From contig JAEEVC010000014.1 in assembly GCA_016287075.1 (NCBI GenBank), positions 1-64,000 on the forward strand: DNA of 64,000 nt, read 5' to 3'. Every line of letters begins with the position of its first letter. Position 1 is the first letter of the stretch. Shown piece by piece: positions 40,516-51,241 of this stretch. The notes under the pieces are model-generated. The model had not been told where the DNA came from. It saw only the letters and a list, made by a program, of their open reading frames with translations, and did no database searches. Source of the DNA: Bacteroidales bacterium. Lineage in GTDB: Bacteria > Bacteroidota > Bacteroidia > Bacteroidales > UBA932. The position numbers and the translations under genes are program-made.

Positions 40516-43500
40516 ATTACGCATCGTGTTTCTTCTTATCTTTTCGGCCTTCTGGCAGGTGCCTCTGTTCTCTTGTCAGCTTGTGCCCGACAGGAAGACC
40601 ATCCCGCTTCTGCGGACGCCGACCGGTATCTCCGCAGTTTTTCCATGGACATAGAATCTGTTTCGACGCGGGCGGCGATCGATTTCACCAGCGGTTCCGT
40701 TACCTGGAACGACGACGACCGTGTCCTGGTCTATGTCCCCGGTACGGCCCAATCCGCTGAATATAAATACGAAGGGGGCGTCTTTGTCCCCGTTGGTTCC
40801 GAACCGCTTGAAACAGGCGATGCGCTCGCATATGCCTACTATCCCGCGGATGCCTTTTCCATCGACGGGGGCACCGTCACCCTCGCGATGCCTGCCTCGG
40901 TAACGGCTGATCCCGGCAACAAACTGCCGATGGGCGGCATCATTCCCGCCGGGCAGATCGCCGGCGGGAAACCCCGGCCGGAAGGGACTTTCAAGAGCCT
41001 GGGATCCATCATCTGGCTCAAACTGACGGCCGTCGAGGGCAAGGAAGGCACCGTGACGGCGGTCCGGATCGAAAATTCCTCGCTCGCCCTGACGGGTTCG
41101 GCCCCGGTGAGCTGGAACGACGATACGCCCGCTCTGGGTTCGCTCGACGGCGAAAAGGCCATAGAAGTGGCTTGCTCTAAGATACTTACGACTTCCGCTC
41201 CGGCCGAGTTCTATCTTTTCGTGCCTGCCGGCGACCAGCAGGACCTCAGCCTGGAACTGACCCTCGAGGAGGTAGCCGGATACAAATCCTCCGTCAAATA
41301 CGCGCGGACCGGCACCCTGGCCCTTGCGCGCAACAAGGTCCTTCCCATCAGCCTCGACGTGAACGGCAAAGTGCCGAGAGGCATCGCTACGGCGGCCGAT
41401 TTCAAGGCCTTCGCCGCGGCGGTGAATGCCGGCGCTTCCACCGCTGAATGGGAGAATGCGGAAGGATGGGTGAACTTATTGAATGACATCGATTTCGAAG
41501 GCGTCTCCGACTTTGTGCCCGCCGGTTTCGCCAAGGCTCCCTGGAACAGCAGCATGGAGCCCGTCTTCTCGGCTGGGACCCATCCCTTCACCGGCAAGTT
41601 CGACGGCAACGCCTTCCATATCAAGAACCTCCATCTGGTTTGCAATGAGACCGCCGCCGGGAAACACTACGGCCTGTTCGGTTCCCTGGGCCCGGGCGCC
41701 GTGGTCCAGAATTTCGTGATCGAGGACAACTGCTCCCTCACCGTTTCTTCCAGCGTCTCCCTGAGCGCCGGCCTGATCGCCGGCCTGGTCTATGACGCCG
41801 AGGTGCGGGATGTCACCAGCTATGCGCCGCTCACCTACGACGGCGCCGCGACCGGCTTCGTGCACATGGCCCTCATCGGCGGCTGCTTCGCCAAGAATCA
41901 GGGCACGACCGTCGACAGCGTGCACAACCGGGGTGAGATTTCGGCCATGAACACCGCCAACGACAAGGGCAACGTACAGGCTATCCATATTGCGGGCATC
42001 GTCGGCTTCACGAACGCCCCTGCCGACGGAAAGGCGACCACGACCATCGCATCCTGCAACAACTACGCGGACATCGTCTCCCAGGCCGGCCGCACCGCCG
42101 GCATCGTTGCGGCCGCCAACCGCTGCACGGAGATCAACGACTGCGAGAACCACGGCGACCAGGCCAACAGCATGCCCGCCTCCGGCGCCGGCCGGCTGGG
42201 CGGGGTCGTCTGCTTCGTCAACGGTTCCAACATGTCCGCCTGCAAGAACTACGGCAACATCTCCTCCAGCACCAATGCCTGCGTGGGCGGCATCTTCTGC
42301 CTGCCCAACGCCGGCACCTACAAGAACCTGGAGAATTACGGCGAAGTGGTCACGGACAATGCCAACCGCGGCGTCTTCTTCGGCTATGTCAACCAGGCCG
42401 CCGTGTTCGAAGGCGGCATCGCATCCGGGCGTGTGGGCACCTATAACAACGGTTCTCCCGTCTGGGACGTCTATTCGGAGGCCGACAAGGTGGCGTACCT
42501 CGGCGTGCAGCAGAACAGCAAGGGCTCCGGATACAACACCATCAACATCACCATCGCGACTGGGGATGTGCCCTCGGGTGATCCTTCCTTCAACGTGGAG
42601 GCCGGACTGCGGATCTTCTTCATCGGCAACAGCTTCACCAAGGACGCCGTGGAGCATCTTCCCGGTATCCTGGATGCCGCCGGCATTACGGACGTGCAGA
42701 TGGTCCACATGTATTACGGCGGACGCACCATCCCGGAATACAACAGCGGCTACAGCTCCGCCACGGACTACCATTGCTATATCTGCAACCCGGGGGCGAC
42801 GAACTGGACCGATGTGTCCGGCAAGAGCCTCGAAGTTGTCGCCAAGAGCGCGAACTGGGACATCATCACCATCCAGGAGCATACCGGCAGGCAGCTCGCC
42901 TGGGGTTGGACCTCAACGGAGAAAGCGGCCGTGGACGGCCTTCTGAACAAGCTCAAGGCCAATCAGGACGCCCGCGGCGCCTCCCCGAAATACTACTACA
43001 TCCTCTCGCAGGCCTACCATGACCTCTCCAAGGCCCAGAATGTCTCCAAGCCGTTCACGGACACGGATACCATGTGGCCGGTGATCGCCGCCCAGGCGCG
43101 GAGCGCCGTCACCGAATGCGGCTTCGACGGAATCATCTCCACCGGCGCCATGTTGCAGAACCTGCGCACCAGCTGGGCCAACAACGCCATGGGGCTGACC
43201 CGCGACGGATACCACATGGACCTGGGCCTGGCCCGCTATGGCGCCTCCTGCACCGTTTTCGAGACCATCATCGGCCCCAATCACAAGCAGGAACTGCTGG
43301 ACAACAATACTTTCCATCCCAATGTGGGAACTCCGGTCACGGAGTACAATGCCCCGCTGGCCCTGAAAGCGGCCCGGCATGCCATCGCCCATCCCTATGA
43401 CGTGACGGATATGAGCGGGGAAACGGATCCCACCCCGGTCAGCGACATCCGGATCTCCAATGCGGCGCAGCTGCTGGAGTTCGCCTCGCGGGTCAACAGC

Positions 43501-44661
43501 GGAGACGCCGCCGCAGCAGCAGCCTCGGTCACCCTGACGGCTGACATCGACTGCGCCTCCGTGAGCGACTGGACGCCGATCGGCAACGCAACGATGTCCA
43601 CCTGGACGGCCACGAGCCTGGCGCTCTCCGGCCCGTCCTTCACCGGCACCTTCGACGGAGCCGGGCACAGCATCAAGAACCTCCACATGCAGTTCACGCC
43701 CACGGAGGCGTCCCGCTGCTGGGGCTTCTTCGGATCCGTCGGCAACGGCGCCACGATCAAGGACCTGACCTTCGACAGCTCCTGTTCGCTGTCCCTGTCC
43801 TCCGGCGTATCCGGCGTCTTCGGCGTCCTCGCCGGCCTGGTGCAGGGTGCGACCATCGAGAATGTGAAGAACTATGCCCGGGTCGGCGGCGGCGCCACTT
43901 CCGCCATCGCCGACAACACCGCGGCCGGCCGGGTCTATACCGGCGGTCTCGTGGGCATGGTCATGGCCACTTCGGAGGCCCGTCTGACGAATCTGCTCAA
44001 TGCGGCCACCCTCGGTTCGGAGACCAACCCCTTCTCGGGCGGGAAGAACACGGGCAACGGCGCCAACGGCATCCACCTGGGCGGCATCGTCGGTTTCGTC
44101 ACCAATCCGAACAACCAGTCGCTGGTGAAAATCACCGGCTGCCGCAACACGGGCGACATCTACAGCTCGGCGGCCCGGACCTCCGGCATCGCCGCGGCCC
44201 TCAACCGCTACGGCTACCTGAAGGACTGCGAAAATACCGGCAATGTGGTGCACAGCGGCACCAACCCCAATTACCGCCTGGGCAACATCACCTGCATCGC
44301 GGCGGCCGGCTGCACGCTGGAAGGCTGCATCAACCGGGGCGACCTGGTGAGTTCGGGCGGCTGCTCCGTCGCCGGGGTCATCTGCCTGGTCAACCATGAC
44401 GACGTGACCATCAAGGACTGCGCCAGCCTCGGCGCCGGCATCGTCTCGGATTCCGTCAATCCCGACGGGGACCAGACCTACACCGGCGTGCTGTATGGCC
44501 GCTGCCAGAAGAAGGCGACCTTCAGCGGCTGCTCCGTCAGCGGCAGCATCGGCCGCTACGGCGCGACTCCCGTCACCCTCACGGCGGAGAACTACCGCCA
44601 GTATGTCGGCGAGAAATATGCATCGAATACAAGTCTGAATACAATTACCTTTGCAGAATAG
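40516..44661 (+). CDS. Surface lipoprotein: fimbrillin-like N-domain, duplicated GLUG-like beta-helix lobes flanking a DUF4886 (SGNH-like) module
   Basis: In-frame signal peptide THRVSSYLFGLLAGASVLLSAC precedes the track ORF (40573) but lacks ATG; LRIFFIGNSFTKDAVEHL...DIITIQEHTG DUF4886 motifs. Confidence 0.8.
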   Translation: MTHRVSSYLFGLLAGASVLLSACARQEDHPASADADRYLRSFSMDIESVSTRAAIDFTSGSVTWNDDDRVLVYVPGTAQSAEYKYEGGVFVPVGSEPLETGDALAYAYYPADAFSIDGGTVTLAMPASVTADPGNKLPMGGIIPAGQIAGGKPRPEGTFKSLGSIIWLKLTAVEGKEGTVTAVRIENSSLALTGSAPVSWNDDTPALGSLDGEKAIEVACSKILTTSAPAEFYLFVPAGDQQDLSLELTLEEVAGYKSSVKYARTGTLALARNKVLPISLDVNGKVPRGIATAADFKAFAAAVNAGASTAEWENAEGWVNLLNDIDFEGVSDFVPAGFAKAPWNSSMEPVFSAGTHPFTGKFDGNAFHIKNLHLVCNETAAGKHYGLFGSLGPGAVVQNFVIEDNCSLTVSSSVSLSAGLIAGLVYDAEVRDVTSYAPLTYDGAATGFVHMALIGGCFAKNQGTTVDSVHNRGEISAMNTANDKGNVQAIHIAGIVGFTNAPADGKATTTIASCNNYADIVSQAGRTAGIVAAANRCTEINDCENHGDQANSMPASGAGRLGGVVCFVNGSNMSACKNYGNISSSTNACVGGIFCLPNAGTYKNLENYGEVVTDNANRGVFFGYVNQAAVFEGGIASGRVGTYNNGSPVWDVYSEADKVAYLGVQQNSKGSGYNTINITIATGDVPSGDPSFNVEAGLRIFFIGNSFTKDAVEHLPGILDAAGITDVQMVHMYYGGRTIPEYNSGYSSATDYHCYICNPGATNWTDVSGKSLEVVAKSANWDIITIQEHTGRQLAWGWTSTEKAAVDGLLNKLKANQDARGASPKYYYILSQAYHDLSKAQNVSKPFTDTDTMWPVIAAQARSAVTECGFDGIISTGAMLQNLRTSWANNAMGLTRDGYHMDLGLARYGASCTVFETIIGPNHKQELLDNNTFHPNVGTPVTEYNAPLALKAARHAIAHPYDVTDMSGETDPTPVSDIRISNAAQLLEFASRVNSGDAAAAAASVTLTADIDCASVSDWTPIGNATMSTWTATSLALSGPSFTGTFDGAGHSIKNLHMQFTPTEASRCWGFFGSVGNGATIKDLTFDSSCSLSLSSGVSGVFGVLAGLVQGATIENVKNYARVGGGATSAIADNTAAGRVYTGGLVGMVMATSEARLTNLLNAATLGSETNPFSGGKNTGNGANGIHLGGIVGFVTNPNNQSLVKITGCRNTGDIYSSAARTSGIAAALNRYGYLKDCENTGNVVHSGTNPNYRLGNITCIAAAGCTLEGCINRGDLVSSGGCSVAGVICLVNHDDVTIKDCASLGAGIVSDSVNPDGDQTYTGVLYGRCQKKATFSGCSVSGSIGRYGATPVTLTAENYRQYVGEKYASNTSLNTITFAE

Positions 44662-44665
44662 TTAA

Positions 44666-47600
44666 ATGAGGAAAACGGTTTTTATCTTGGCATTTGCTGC
44701 AGCTGCCACGCTGTGCGGCGGATGCGGCAGGGAGCAGGAAACCCAGACCCAGCCGGGGAAGTGGGACAACCTGGATCCCGTCACCTACCTTACGGCATTC
44801 GACATGCGGGTCGAAGACGCGCAGACCCGCGCCGACATCGATTTCACCAGCGGTGCCATCAGCTGGAACAGCGGTGACGAGGCGCTGGTCTATGTGCCCT
44901 CGACCGGCAGGTCGTCCGTTTACACCTACAACGGCTCCTGCTTCGAGCCGAAGAACACGCCGCTCCAGATCGGGACCGGCGAGGCCTACGCCTATTTCCC
45001 CGCGTCGGCCTATTCCATCTCCGACGGCAAGGTGAACTTCACCATGCCGGAATCCGTGACGGAAGACCCGGGCAACAAGCTGCCCATGGGCGGCATCATC
45101 CCCTCCGGCGGCATTCCCTCCGGCAAGGAGCGCCGGGAAGGTACGTTCAAGAGCCTCGGCGCCCTTCTCTGGGTCCGCCTGACGGCCGTGGCCGGCAAGG
45201 AAGAGACCCTTTCGGGCATTACCCTGGAGAACACCAAGCTCGCGCTGACCGGCCAGGGCGAGGTGACTTGGAACGGCACGACGCCTTCCCTGTCCGCCCT
45301 GGGCGGCGGCAAGTCCATCCAGGTATCCTGCAACAAGCAGCTCAGCGCCTCTGAGGCGGCCGAGTTCTTCCTTTTCGCCCCCGCCGGCACCCTGGAAGGC
45401 CTCGCACTGACCGTCACGTTCCAGGAAGTGGCGGGCGTCAAGCCCTATACCCGCCTGACCCGTGACGGCGCCCTGACCCTGGAGCGGAACCATGTCGTCC
45501 CGGTCTCCTGGAGCCTGGACGGCCACAGCAACACGGATTCCGCGAAGGGCGATCCCATCGCCGTGAAGGACGGGAAGGTCCTGTTCTTCCTGGAGATCCC
45601 TGCGGAGGGGAGTGCCGTCCGCACGGCCCTCGGCCTCGAGGGCGGCTCCTTCGCCGGCAGCTCCGTCCTGGTCAACGGTACCGCCTATGAGATCCTGATC
45701 AACCCGGGTGGGGAACCCTACGTCGAGGTGGCCGAGGCGGCCGATGGAAAGTACGAGGCTGCGCTCCTGAAAGGGGAGTCCCTGGGCCTGTACGGCGCTT
45801 CCGCCGACAAGGACGTGGTCCTGCCGTTCTCGCAGCTGTACCGGGACACCGCGGCTGATTTCGAGCACTATCCCCGTTACGCCGCCTACTCCGAGGCCAC
45901 GGGCAATGTCCTTTCCTTCAAGGAAGCCGTCGCCCTGCTGGACCTGAAGTTCACCGGCCTGGTCAAACTGTCCTCCGTGAAGGTCCGTTCCCTCGGTGGG
46001 GAGACCCTCAGCGGCCGGGCCGACTATTCCTACGCCGCGTCCGCCTTCTCCCCGAAGGAAAGCCTGGACGAGGCGGTCGTCAACTGCACCAACCAGGGCA
46101 GTTTCCTGCAGCTGTTCAGCTCCGGCAAGAACGTCCCCGTCCTCATCGCCCCCGGTACCTTCTCCGCCGGCCTGGAAATCACGGCCGTTACGGACAATCA
46201 CCTGGTCATGCACAAGACCATCACGCCGGGAACGGTCCAGGCGGGCAGCGTCTATGCGGAGACCATTCCCTGGGTGGCCGACGAGGATGTCGTGTTCTTC
46301 GAGGGCTTCGACAACTTCACCTGGGGCGGCAACGTGATGGCCGGCAGCCAGGGCTTCGGTTACGCGCCGGATGCCTCCGACATGACCATTGAAAGCGGAC
46401 GGGACCGCGACGGTTATGCGCGCGCATATACCAAAGTAGATTACAACGTCGCCGGGACCGGGTACATCCAGCCCAACACCTGGGATGCGGTCAAGAATGC
46501 GACGGTCGGGTCCTCCCATGTCCTGTCGGACTCCTACCTGAAGAGCCGCAACCTCTCCGATTGGTTCATCCTCTACCGCACGCAGGAATACCAGGGCGTC
46601 GTGGCGCTGGGTACGGCCGAGACGTCCCGCGGCGTCCTCCGGACCCCGCTGTTCCGCAATATCCAGGGACCCTGTGACCTGAAGGTCAGCTTCGACATCT
46701 GCCTGCAGGACGGCAATGCTTCGGGCGTCCAGCTGCAGATCTACAACGGCGGTCATTTCGATTCTTGCACCATCGACGGTGCCCCCGCCAATCCCAAGAA
46801 CTATACCTACAAGGCCAATTTCGCCGAGATCCTGTTTGAAGACAATGCGATCCCGGCGGCCGCCTCGATGGAGTCCGCCAAGACCTGGCACAGAGTCGAG
46901 GTGACGGTCCGTGACGCCACCGACGCCACGGCCCTCGACATCCGCAGCGCCGTCGCTTCGGGCGCCACGCTGGGCCTCTGGGTGGACAACATCCTGGCCA
47001 GGCAGATCAAGAACACCAAGGACAAGGGCAACCTCCGCATCCTGTACTGGAACATCCAGAACGGCATGTGGTGGGACCAGGGCAACAACTACGACAATTT
47101 TGTCGCCTTCGTGAAGAAATACGATCCGGACATCTGCATCTGGTGCGAAAGCGAGAGCATCTACAAGACCGGTTCGGATGCCTACGAGAACACGGGCGAC
47201 CGCTACCTGTATTATTCCAGGCCCGGCAACTGGACCGCGCTCGCGAAGCGTTACGGCCACAGCTATGCATCCATCAGCGGCCGCACGGACAGCTATCCGC
47301 AGGAGGTGACTTCAAAGTATCCGATCACCCGGGTGCAGGCGTTCTCCAACAGTTCCAACCTGTTCCACGGCGGCGGCCATTTCCAGATCACGGTCAACGG
47401 CACCCTGCTCAACATCGTGACCACGCACCCGTATCCGAAGAATTCCGGCGACGGCAACCACTCGTCCAGCGCCCAGATCGAGTCGGACAACCTGCGCGTG
47501 AAGGAAATGACGTACCTGCTCGCCCAGACCGTCAACAAGAGCACGTATTCCTCCGAAAAGAACTGGGTGATGGCGGGCGACATGAACGCCAACAGCCCCC

Positions 47601-47914
47601 TGGACTGCTGGTACACCGGAGCCGACCCCAATAATATTGCGTTCAAGGCCCAGGGATACGTCCTGGAGCATTCGGACCTGAAGGATTCGGTCTACGAGTT
47701 CTGGAACGCCGGGACCCCCGACACCTTCTGCAGCTCCACCAACGGTTCCAAGGACCGCCGGGATTTCGTCTATCTCTCGCCTGCGCTGATGGGGAAGACC
47801 GTGCGCGCCATTTCCCTCAACGACAGCTGGACCTACAGCATCAAGTCGCTGAATATCTCGAACTTCAAGAGCCCGTCCGACCACCGGCCCATCCTTGTTG
47901 ACATTCAACTGTAA
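44666..47914 (+). CDS. Surface lipoprotein: fimbrillin-like N-domain with C-terminal EEP phosphoesterase domain
   Basis: Lipobox LCGGC; N-domain clearly homologous to the preceding gene; C-terminal LRILYWNIQNGMW, AGDMNANSPLD, SDHRPILVDI. Confidence 0.88.
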   Translation: MRKTVFILAFAAAATLCGGCGREQETQTQPGKWDNLDPVTYLTAFDMRVEDAQTRADIDFTSGAISWNSGDEALVYVPSTGRSSVYTYNGSCFEPKNTPLQIGTGEAYAYFPASAYSISDGKVNFTMPESVTEDPGNKLPMGGIIPSGGIPSGKERREGTFKSLGALLWVRLTAVAGKEETLSGITLENTKLALTGQGEVTWNGTTPSLSALGGGKSIQVSCNKQLSASEAAEFFLFAPAGTLEGLALTVTFQEVAGVKPYTRLTRDGALTLERNHVVPVSWSLDGHSNTDSAKGDPIAVKDGKVLFFLEIPAEGSAVRTALGLEGGSFAGSSVLVNGTAYEILINPGGEPYVEVAEAADGKYEAALLKGESLGLYGASADKDVVLPFSQLYRDTAADFEHYPRYAAYSEATGNVLSFKEAVALLDLKFTGLVKLSSVKVRSLGGETLSGRADYSYAASAFSPKESLDEAVVNCTNQGSFLQLFSSGKNVPVLIAPGTFSAGLEITAVTDNHLVMHKTITPGTVQAGSVYAETIPWVADEDVVFFEGFDNFTWGGNVMAGSQGFGYAPDASDMTIESGRDRDGYARAYTKVDYNVAGTGYIQPNTWDAVKNATVGSSHVLSDSYLKSRNLSDWFILYRTQEYQGVVALGTAETSRGVLRTPLFRNIQGPCDLKVSFDICLQDGNASGVQLQIYNGGHFDSCTIDGAPANPKNYTYKANFAEILFEDNAIPAAASMESAKTWHRVEVTVRDATDATALDIRSAVASGATLGLWVDNILARQIKNTKDKGNLRILYWNIQNGMWWDQGNNYDNFVAFVKKYDPDICIWCESESIYKTGSDAYENTGDRYLYYSRPGNWTALAKRYGHSYASISGRTDSYPQEVTSKYPITRVQAFSNSSNLFHGGGHFQITVNGTLLNIVTTHPYPKNSGDGNHSSSAQIESDNLRVKEMTYLLAQTVNKSTYSSEKNWVMAGDMNANSPLDCWYTGADPNNIAFKAQGYVLEHSDLKDSVYEFWNAGTPDTFCSSTNGSKDRRDFVYLSPALMGKTVRAISLNDSWTYSIKSLNISNFKSPSDHRPILVDIQL

Positions 47915-47929
47915 ACATATCGGCAGTCT

Positions 47930-48076
47930 ATGAAAAGAGAACAGTATTCCGCCCCGGCCCTGCGTATCGTGGACCTCGCCCTCTCCGGGCAGTTCCTCGT
48001 CGGCTCGGCCAACCTGGATTCCAGCATCGAACCCCTCGTGATCCTGGAGGACGATTCGTCGAACTGGTCGATCTGA
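47930..48076 (+). CDS. 48-aa YSAP-motif small peptide
   Basis: MKREQYSAPALRIVDLALSGQFLVGSANLDSSIEPLVILEDDSSNWSI*; below the ORF-track size cutoff, shares motifs with 48122-48274. Confidence 0.7.
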   Translation: MKREQYSAPALRIVDLALSGQFLVGSANLDSSIEPLVILEDDSSNWSI

Positions 48077-48121
48077 TCGTTTCGAATCAAAGTAATTAAT
48101 AATATAAATAACTGATTTTCA

Positions 48122-48274
48122 ATGCGTATGAAAACAGATCCCTATTCTGCTCCAAACGCCGAAGTTTTGTTCCTGCGCCTGGAAGAAACCATTTTGAGCG
48201 GGGAAATCCGCCCAGGTAACAAGCCCACGGAAAACTTCGATGGGCCCGTTGAAGATGATGAAAATTGGATGTAA
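48122..48274 (+). CDS. 50-aa YSAP-motif small peptide
   Basis: MRMKTDPYSAPNAEVLFLRLEETILSGEIRPGNKPTENFDGPVEDDENWM*. Confidence 0.7.
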   Translation: MRMKTDPYSAPNAEVLFLRLEETILSGEIRPGNKPTENFDGPVEDDENWM

Positions 48275-48289: not shown

Positions 48290-51241
48290 ATGAAAAAGAA
48301 TTTGAAACTTTTCGGGCTCATCGCCCTTTTTGCCATCGCTTTCTCCTGTTCCAAGGAGGCAAACCAGGACGTGGCAACCCCCGAAGGAAACGATCCAGAG
48401 GAGCAGACTGTTCCCGTCACCGAAGAACCGGCGGCAGACGGAAATCTTCTTACAAGTTTCAGCGTTACCTTTGAGAACGACGCTGAAGGAGCCCCGACCA
48501 AGGTTTCCGTGGATCTGGGAACCGGAGTGACCGATATCGAGTCGGATGACGAAGTTCTCGTTGTCAGCAGCAGCGAATCTGCTGTCTATAAGTATAACGG
48601 AGAAGTGTTCGTGCCCAAGACGGCTGGCAGCGAAGTCACGATTTCCGATGCGGGCGTGAGTGTCTATTATCCGGCTGGCGAATTCGAATTGACGGGTAAT
48701 CAAGTACTGTTCACCATGCCTGCTGCGATTTTGGCCGCTGATTACGGCACAATCAATCCCATGGCCGGCCAGATTACCGAATCTGAGGGAGCTTACACGG
48801 TTCAGCTTTGCAACATGGTCTCTGTGCTGAAAGTGAATGTAACTGCAGCCTCTGAAATTCAGTCGGTTACACTGAACTATGGCTCTGTGAATGACGCGGC
48901 TTTGAACTACGGAACCGGCTCCAAGTGGTCCGTTGATGCGGCGAACAAGACACTGATGTTTGTTGAGGGATCCGCAACTGAAACGGCTGTTTCCGTTTCC
49001 GAGACCTCGGCTGAAGTGGCATTCATCCTCCCCGCCGTTGAACTCGGGAAACTGACCGTTACGGCCAATCAGACCACAGGACAATCCATTTCTATATCCA
49101 GAGCTGGTTTTACGCCGACAAAGAATACCATCTCCACGATGTCTTTCAATGCCCTCTTCTCGGGTGGTAAAGGCACAGAAAAATCGCCTTACAAGATTGC
49201 CACTGCCCAGGACTTCAAAGACATCTCAGTTCACGCAGCCAACGGCTTTGCCGGACTGGAGGCCAGCTATTTCCTCGGAGCCTATTACATCCAGACTGCA
49301 GTTATTGATTTCAATGGTGAAGACCTCAGCGGCTACATGATTGCCTCGGCTTCCGCTCCTTTCACCGGCACTTATGATGGTGACAGCAAGACCCTGAGCA
49401 ACTTCAGCATTGAAGGCTCTCCCAGCGGCAACGAGGGCGTAGCTCTTTTCAAGGCCATCAATGGCGCTACGCTTCAGAACATCTCCATCTCTGGTGCTAA
49501 CGTCACTGGTGGCAAGTTTACCGCGGGCCTGGTTGGCTACGCAAATGGTGCAAGCCTTACAATCACCGGATGCTCCATTTCCTCTTCCACCATTTCAGCC
49601 AGTGGTGACTACGGAGCTGCCGGTCTTATCGGCGGTCTGTATGCCGGCACGGTTTCAAGTTGCTCCGGTACTGACCTTACCATTGGTGCAACCAATACAT
49701 CGGGCAACAAGAGGTATTATGGCGGACTTATCAGCTATGCTCGCGGTACAACCACCGTATACGGTTGTTCGCTCAATGGAACCACTACCGTAAACGGCAC
49801 TCCTGCCTATTTCGGCGGTATTGCCGGCCAGACCAACGAAGATGAGACCACCATTACCGGCTGCGAAAACCACTCCGACATTTCCGGCGCAGGCAACTTT
49901 GCCGGTGGCATTGTCGGCATTAAGACCAAGGGCTCGATTGAAGGTTGTACCAATGACGGCAGCGTCGGCGGCGCTCAGTATGTGGGCGGCATTGCAGGGA
50001 GAAATGAGGCCGGAAATATCCTTGGCTGCACCAACGAAGGTGATATCGTATCGACTGGTATTGCCGGTGGTATTGCGGGGCAGGTCACAGGCGGTACCAT
50101 TAAGGACTGCACCAATGAAAGCAGCGCCACCTTCTCTGTCAGCGGTGCTACAGTAGGCGGAATCGCTGGCACCCTCACCGGTGGTACCATTACCGCTTCC
50201 GATGGCAGATATACGGAGAACAAGGCCGATATCGATCTCGGTGTTGTTGAAGGAAAGAATAACGTCGGTGGCATTGTTGGTCAGCTTGAAGGCGCTATCA
50301 CCAATGTCAAGAATTCGGGTGCAATCACCGGTTATTACAATATCGGCGGCATCGGCGGCACTATTACTACAAACGCTTCTGTAGAGAATGCCCTTTCTTC
50401 GGGAAATGTCTCCGGCTATCAGAATGTCGGCGGCATTTCAGGAAAGCATGGTCATAATGCAAATGCTGCGATAACCAAAAAGATCACTCTCAAAAACTGT
50501 CATGTGGATGGCGCAGACATCACGGCAAGCGCCGATGACGGACGTGCCGGCGGTATTGCAGGTCTTGTTTTTGCTGGTTCCTGGATCGAAGGCTGCACCG
50601 CATTCCGCGGGTCGGTTTCCGGTCATCAGGATGTGGGAGGTGCCATCGGTCACCTGCAGTATGCCAGCAGCAGCACCGACAAGAGCAACCGTATATATGT
50701 CGGAGCCAATCTGGTCTCTATGGACGTTTCCGGTCTTACTCCTATTAACAATACTTCCAGGATCGGCGGATTCTTTGGCTGGTTCCAGAATAACAAGGAT
50801 GCCTATACCTTCGCTTATCAGAACGGTGTTGTCGGTGGCAGCATTATTGCTGAGGGGTGCCAGTATGTGGGTTCCTTCGTCGGCTATGCAAGCGTTTCCA
50901 GCAATAAGGGCCGTATCTGGGATTCTTACTCCCTCATTGAAGACTCCAATTTCCATGTGACTACCACAAATGCCAATATCGGTGGCTTCGCCGGAGGGTA
51001 TGGTAATGCGAATGTCAATTCCGTCCGTAACGCTCATGTGAACTCGCAGAACACTTCAGCTGCTACCAGCGGTATTACCAAAACTACGGTTGCAGACATC
51101 CGCACCGTCAATTTGGGTACTTCGGAAACTCCGTCCTGCAATGTCGATGGCTCGGCTTACACAACCACTACCTGGTCCAACCCTAGCGATGTGAATTATC
51201 CCGTTCCGACAATCCTTGTTACGTACGGACACTACAAATAG
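48290..51241 (+). CDS. Surface lipoprotein: fimbrillin-like N-domain with GLUG-rich beta-helix
   Basis: Lipobox IAFSC; repeated GGIAG.......I..C.N.G.I motifs. Confidence 0.9.
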   Translation: MKKNLKLFGLIALFAIAFSCSKEANQDVATPEGNDPEEQTVPVTEEPAADGNLLTSFSVTFENDAEGAPTKVSVDLGTGVTDIESDDEVLVVSSSESAVYKYNGEVFVPKTAGSEVTISDAGVSVYYPAGEFELTGNQVLFTMPAAILAADYGTINPMAGQITESEGAYTVQLCNMVSVLKVNVTAASEIQSVTLNYGSVNDAALNYGTGSKWSVDAANKTLMFVEGSATETAVSVSETSAEVAFILPAVELGKLTVTANQTTGQSISISRAGFTPTKNTISTMSFNALFSGGKGTEKSPYKIATAQDFKDISVHAANGFAGLEASYFLGAYYIQTAVIDFNGEDLSGYMIASASAPFTGTYDGDSKTLSNFSIEGSPSGNEGVALFKAINGATLQNISISGANVTGGKFTAGLVGYANGASLTITGCSISSSTISASGDYGAAGLIGGLYAGTVSSCSGTDLTIGATNTSGNKRYYGGLISYARGTTTVYGCSLNGTTTVNGTPAYFGGIAGQTNEDETTITGCENHSDISGAGNFAGGIVGIKTKGSIEGCTNDGSVGGAQYVGGIAGRNEAGNILGCTNEGDIVSTGIAGGIAGQVTGGTIKDCTNESSATFSVSGATVGGIAGTLTGGTITASDGRYTENKADIDLGVVEGKNNVGGIVGQLEGAITNVKNSGAITGYYNIGGIGGTITTNASVENALSSGNVSGYQNVGGISGKHGHNANAAITKKITLKNCHVDGADITASADDGRAGGIAGLVFAGSWIEGCTAFRGSVSGHQDVGGAIGHLQYASSSTDKSNRIYVGANLVSMDVSGLTPINNTSRIGGFFGWFQNNKDAYTFAYQNGVVGGSIIAEGCQYVGSFVGYASVSSNKGRIWDSYSLIEDSNFHVTTTNANIGGFAGGYGNANVNSVRNAHVNSQNTSAATSGITKTTVADIRTVNLGTSETPSCNVDGSAYTTTTWSNPSDVNYPVPTILVTYGHYK

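Follow-up and report, generated by a model that had tools for sequence, protein, structure and literature searches.

In the window, that is, the whole stretch of 64,000 nucleotides analysed here, two small ORFs lie one behind the other between two genes for surface lipoproteins. Both are found on the forward strand where the original prediction had placed them, with the sequences it gave. The features of the locus are as follows.

44666..47914, + strand: upstream lipoprotein, similar in its N-terminal region, that ends in an endonuclease/exonuclease/phosphatase domain (PF03372, 2.1e-5); included in alignment A6
47930..48076, + strand: peptide 1, MKREQYSAPALRIVDLALSGQFLVGSANLDSSIEPLVILEDDSSNWSI, 48 aa (own-genome profile match, 2.6e-10)
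47930..48004, + strand: putative leader of peptide 1, through residue 25, with Y-x-A-P at 47945-47956 (boundary predicted from the 83-member alignment)
48122..48274, + strand: peptide 2, MRMKTDPYSAPNAEVLFLRLEETILSGEIRPGNKPTENFDGPVEDDENWM, 50 aa (profile match, 2.8e-16)
48122..48202, + strand: putative leader of peptide 2, through ILSG, with Y-x-A-P at 48143-48154 (boundary predicted from the 83-member alignment)
48290..51241, + strand: partner lipoprotein of peptide 2, with an SPII signal and GLUG repeats (GLUG, 2.9e-15); included with the other partners in alignment A6

The upstream lipoprotein gene is separated from peptide 1 by 15 nt, peptide 1 from peptide 2 by 45 nt, and peptide 2 from the GLUG lipoprotein gene by 15 nt; the start of this last gene is preceded by AAAGGAGGAAAGAGT. 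Since the GC3 of peptide 2 (0.52) resembles that of the downstream gene (0.55), peptide 2 may have come in along with its lipoprotein; the values for peptide 1 and the upstream lipoprotein gene are 0.83 and 0.86, respectively. No family model was found for either peptide in a Pfam and NCBIfam scan. The window also contains a DUF4886/fimbrillin-like ORF (40516-44661), which is listed from a TTG at 40573 and stays open in frame further upstream; its extension carries lipoprotein-signal-like residues with no ATG, GTG or TTG, so that an ATT start or a sequence error is possible.

The two peptides belong to a large, unnamed family of gut and rumen Bacteroidales. Its signature consists of a K-rich start and Y-x-A-P-x3-[VIL]-x2-[VIL]-x-[LFT]-E-x2-[IL]-[LA]-x-[SG], after which comes a core that is short, variable and acidic. 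Y and P define the family and served as anchors for aligning 83 members; here, the leader showed K at -3 in 59%, A or S at +3 in 76%, E at +14 in 69% and S or G at +20 in 69%, along with hydrophobic residues at +8 (V/I/L), +11 (V/L/I), +17 (I/F/L) and +18 (L/A). The core has a median length of 20 residues, with 27% D/E and 3% K/R, and W occurs within the last 8 residues in 55% of the members. Across the family there is no strictly conserved single cleavage site; likewise, a conserved Thr near the leader end, corresponding to the Thr (or Ile) at position -2 of lasso leaders, is absent from the 83 members. Of the two motifs that the original prediction saw shared between the peptides, the N-terminal one proved to be the family signature, while the DDxxNW ending is not conserved across the 83 members.

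The more general expectation, namely a genuine family whose ends are conserved while its middle varies, with homologues in related genomes, was borne out. Profile searches, with loci read individually, revealed 20 members in the same genome, a count that may miss diverged members; they are located on contigs C5, C7, C16, C20, C23 (two), C36, C37, C39, C48, C51, C53 (two), C58 (two), C60 (three), C64 and C65. A first search of this genome had given two loci besides the pair in the window, both immediately 5' of a lipoprotein gene. Beyond this genome, profile searches found members in 47 of the 61 genomes of the genus and, within the order, in about nine further families. Five loci (L027, L028, L051, L054 and L080) were judged to be false peptide matches. 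The dN/dS-type check that had been proposed also came out in favour of the family: pN/pS is mostly below 1 by pair and 0.38 when homologous pairs are pooled (p=2e-14), with one very close pair, L067/L074, above 1. Judging from these substitution ratios, the peptides are under purifying selection.

Some members appear to be mosaics. The paralogues L067, L068 and L074 of the same genome have an identical core but differ at the leader start, while L007 and L011 have a common leader and different cores. Core and leader thus seem to move independently, and such a mixture of cores and leaders suggests recombination at the leader/core border.

For 19 of the 20 peptides of this genome, the next gene encodes a lipoprotein whose N-terminal domain is fimbrillin-like; only peptide 1 departs from this, its next gene being that of peptide 2. 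The original prediction had staked itself on the co-occurrence of the motif with fimbrillin/GLUG lipoprotein genes, and this co-occurrence holds: across all loci, we counted 58 unique peptide-lipoprotein pairs with a median gap of 16 nt, including one secreted, non-lipoprotein gene of genus g108 (L085) that passed the pattern. Common to the partner lipoproteins is a T-[RK]-T...W...GD motif after the lipobox Cys, itself invariant in the alignment. Mfa_like_1 was matched by 5 of 40 partners. Because a PDB sequence search with the lipoprotein profile gave weak matches only, the fold was predicted with AlphaFold2 for the shortest complete partner (L102, 284 aa), which was aligned with 39 others, including both lipoproteins of the window. 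The best PDB match of this model (mean pLDDT 82.6) was a putative adhesin of Bacteroides (4k4k, E 4.9e-10), with Mfa2, Mfa3, Mfa4 and FimA among the lower matches; besides 4k4k, the matched entries are 5nfi, 5nf4, 5dhm and 4q98. Together with the family alignment, this A6-guided model of another family member indicates that the N-terminal region of the 48290..51241 lipoprotein is fimbrillin-like. By the predicted fold, the partners fall within the type V fimbrillin superfamily in the sense of an SPII lipoprotein with a fimbrillin-type domain. Their C-terminal domains vary, comprising GLUG, BspA-type LRR, M64 peptidase and BACON domains.

A different arrangement is seen in genus g108 of family f106 (L081-L086), where YxxP peptides lie directly downstream of secreted proteins and not upstream of a lipoprotein. 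The peptide cores of this genus end in RSxLWGDDE, and the secreted proteins have C-termini that, by eye and unscored, resemble T9SS sorting domains (GxYIVNGKKVIxK).

At the loci read, a set of five genes recurs, encoding an HprK-like kinase, a SEC11/SipW-like S26 peptidase, PqqD, NTP_transf_5 (NTP5) and an ABC exporter. In the genome under study, the module S26-PqqD-NTP5-ABC is located on another contig than the window (C60:43138-46646), and no HprK gene was found beside it. Three of the peptide-lipoprotein pairs lie on the same contig C60 (at about 55.0, 57.8 and 60.9 kb), 9-15 kb from this operon. The S26-like protein matches SEC11A/C by profile and, like the S26B signal peptidases (SEC11, SipW, archaeal), has G-x-S-M-x-P, H-R and G-D-G; G-x-S-M-x-P-F-I, H-R and G-D-G are kept in all rows of its alignment. 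It differs from these peptidases in that no transmembrane segment was found, the maximum 19-residue hydropathy being 0.8-0.9 in three members. The only PDB matches of the PqqD profile were the lasso B1/PqqD chaperones 9x90, 6jx3 and 5v1u, and a model of the HprK-like kinase (pLDDT 90.6) matches PEPCK and HprK/P folds. It is also worth mentioning a locus at a contig edge (L106:8129-12664, G057:C3), where an FxxP peptide with a Cys-rich core, QCGAAWCDSCFTDM, adjoins a radical SAM enzyme and HprK/S26/PqqD genes; it is possibly a radical-SAM RiPP served by the same HprK/S26/PqqD module.

PqqD (PF05402) is present in 53 of the 61 genus genomes and in 245 of the 394 genomes of the order, and since it is too unspecific alone, the S26-like protein was used as the module marker. 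Over the 394 genomes, peptides were called at E<=0.01 (20 genomes) and the S26-like protein independently. With a cut-off for strong S26 matches chosen after the table was seen, 17 of the 20 peptide genomes (E<=5e-26) had such a protein against 12 of the 374 others (below 1e-17; p=2e-19). The association persists at the level of families (p=7e-10), on removal of the genus under study (p=3e-16) and when every S26 match at E<=1e-8 is counted (p=1e-12). Among the three peptide genomes with no strong S26 match, G092 and G220 look like false peptide matches, and G337 is 89% complete.

Linkage points in the same direction. A scan of GTDB contigs for the S26-like protein gave 342 relatives; the best 80 among them all come from Bacteroidales or Bacteroidia, mostly from rumen and forestomach MAGs. 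Within 4 kb of these 80 genes, HprK is present in 80, PqqD in 77 and ABC in 66, and the 80 loci (1.06 Mb) contain 15 YxAP peptides versus about 1.9 expected (p=2e-9). For ten of these 15, at rumen loci, peptide and S26 share a strand, with the peptide 1495-1575 bp downstream and the gene order HprK-S26-PqqD-NTP5-peptide within a single operon; in the four of the ten that were read gene by gene (L192, L176, L172 and L158), a lipoprotein comes after the peptide, as it also does in L142. Other arrangements are peptide-lipoprotein-PqqD-NTP5 (L103) and peptide-lipoprotein-HprK-S26-PqqD-NTP5-ABC (L090). Operonic linkage between precursor and RRE protein genes, a general trait of RRE-dependent RiPPs, is thus found in L103, L090, L142 and others. 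Inside the genus the association is weaker: peptides occur in 44 of the 53 genomes with PqqD versus 3 of the 8 without it (p=0.012), many of these genomes being incomplete. Exceptions are G007, G018 and G051, with no PqqD or S26 match, and G032, with 10 peptides and a PqqD match but no S26 match. Most peptides of the genus lie far from the module, and their raw linkage to PqqD, estimated by eye from the tables, looked only marginal; hence, we base our claim on the order-wide table together with the operons named above.

Taken together, these data lead us to consider it likely that the two ORFs encode RRE-guided precursor peptides, matured in trans by a module of PqqD, S26, tailoring enzymes and ABC exporter, and paired with fimbrillin-like lipoproteins. 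The family, its purifying selection, the one-to-one pairing with lipoproteins, the co-occurrence and operonic linkage with the module, the intact S26 motifs and the lack of a lasso B2 are observed. YxxP is the RRE recognition motif of lasso leaders, read by PqqD proteins (PMC12710340), and phosphorylated and glycosylated lasso peptides are tailored by K kinases and N nucleotidyltransferases, with paeninodin and pseudomycoidin as reported cases (PMC8498205). In the simplest reading, the leader (the approximately 25 N-terminal residues with the K-rich start, YxAP, alternating hydrophobics, E and I-L-x-S/G) would be bound by the stand-alone PqqD encoded on C60. The soluble SEC11/SipW-like S26 Ser-His peptidase would then cut it off near ILSG, and the core might be modified by the HprK-like kinase (in most relatives) and NTP_transf_5, as by the lasso K and N enzymes. 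Passage of the acidic core through the inner membrane would fall to the dedicated ABC exporter. Once outside the cytoplasm, the peptide would work with the neighbouring fimbrillin-like lipoprotein, probably as a bound companion or ligand, which is the least certain step of this scheme. One maturation/export module could in this way serve about 20 scattered loci in trans.

The same maturation system might instead release a secreted antimicrobial or signalling peptide, with the lipoprotein as its receptor or immunity protein. The lasso-like tailoring set with its exporter, the short variable cores and the presence of one lipoprotein per peptide would all suit such a product. Yet about 20 peptides per genome would demand 20 self-protection proteins, partners ending in GLUG, BspA-type LRR, M64 peptidase or BACON domains are unlike an immunity family, and in another Bacteroidales genus the proteins encoded ahead of the peptide are secreted ones whose C-terminus is T9SS-like. 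We regard this alternative as unlikely: with about 20 pairs in each genome and partners so varied in function, a bound companion seems to us the better reading than an antimicrobial and its immunity protein.

The other explanations seem much less probable still. The median gap of 16 nt 5' of the lipoprotein start is what one would expect of an upstream leader ORF that controls lipoprotein translation by coupling or stalling, the peptide itself being of little importance; conservation at the amino-acid level, co-occurrence with the PqqD/S26 module and the downstream position of the peptides in another genus make this very improbable. A RAPP-like ribosome-stalling leader in particular was rejected by reasoning only, as YxAP at about residue 8 is too close to the N-terminus for the exit tunnel. 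The original prediction had offered a chaperone, an assembly tag or a signal. Comparative evidence speaks against this, since the peptides have no hydrophobic segment and their conserved N-terminus reads as an RRE/PqqD-type leader tied to a maturation/export module, a tie that the original prediction had no means of seeing; a cytoplasmic chaperone or assembly tag would fit the one-to-one pairing with lipoproteins but leaves the YxxP motif and the module association unexplained, and its chances are slighter again. Double-glycine export, suggested by the ILSG ending, was discarded: the C39 exporter-peptidase (PF03412) is absent from this genome, though present in 5 of the 61 genus genomes. The least credible reading of all is that of ordinary lasso peptides, in spite of the YxxP leader, PqqD, kinase, nucleotidyltransferase and ABC exporter, for the B2 transglutaminase-like leader protease (PF13471) is absent from this genome and over cut-off in only 1 of the 61 genus genomes, and no Asn-synthetase-like cyclase was recognised among the module genes on inspection and HMM scan.

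The RRE-guided precursor reading joins RiPP-type leader/RRE machinery to the fimbrillin-like surface proteins that Bacteroidales of gut and rumen carry, two subjects that are unconnected in the literature we found. No paper describing a system with PqqD and fimbrillin, or with PqqD, HprK and Bacteroidales, was found in the open-licence literature; the literature searched gave no description of a small companion peptide for fimbrillins; and a survey of Bacteroidales RiPPs makes no mention of S24-type peptidases, HPr or fimbrillin (PMC10352776). On this reading, ORFs of 40-70 aa that lack annotation gain a testable role, each genome is predicted to process and export many peptides by one pathway, and one RRE comes with a ready set of natural leader-core pairs. 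It is tempting to go further and suppose, tentatively and at somewhat less than even chances, that Bacteroidales supply surface lipoproteins, as a class, with companion peptides of their own that are made on ribosomes and phosphorylated or glycosylated. The roughly 20 scattered pairs of a genome would then be served by one trans-acting module of PqqD, S26, kinase, nucleotidyltransferase and exporter, with peptide export separate from Sec and T9SS.

Finally, we would like to compare this system with known ones. In fold, the partners resemble the type V fimbrial proteins of Bacteroidales (FimA, Mfa2-4, Mfa_like_1), from which they differ by their long and varied C-terminal domains. The HPr-rel-A system (TIGR04352 kinase, TIGR04353 PqqD) likewise combines an HprK-related kinase with PqqD, but the profile matches are weak and far below the NCBIfam cut-offs; PqqD_rel_X comes nearer, yet also stays below (20.7 vs 35 bits). 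A lasso-like cluster does exist in one member of the genus (L107 and L153, G013:C1), with two Asn-synthetase-like ORFs, HprK-like, sulfotransferase and PqqD genes and the only over-cut-off B2 match mentioned above. With the tailored lasso clusters of paeninodin (K) and pseudomycoidin (K and N), the present system shares the YxxP leader, a stand-alone PqqD (B1), an HprK-like kinase, a nucleotidyltransferase and an ABC exporter; both the motif and the PqqD profile, closest to B1 structures, predict leader binding of the lasso type. The differences are that there is no B2 and no cyclase in the module, that an S26 signal-peptidase-like protein is present instead, and that each genome has about 20 mostly unlinked precursors. 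Overall, we might describe the system as lasso-peptide-like without the lasso-making enzymes, one that probably trims and exports its peptides.
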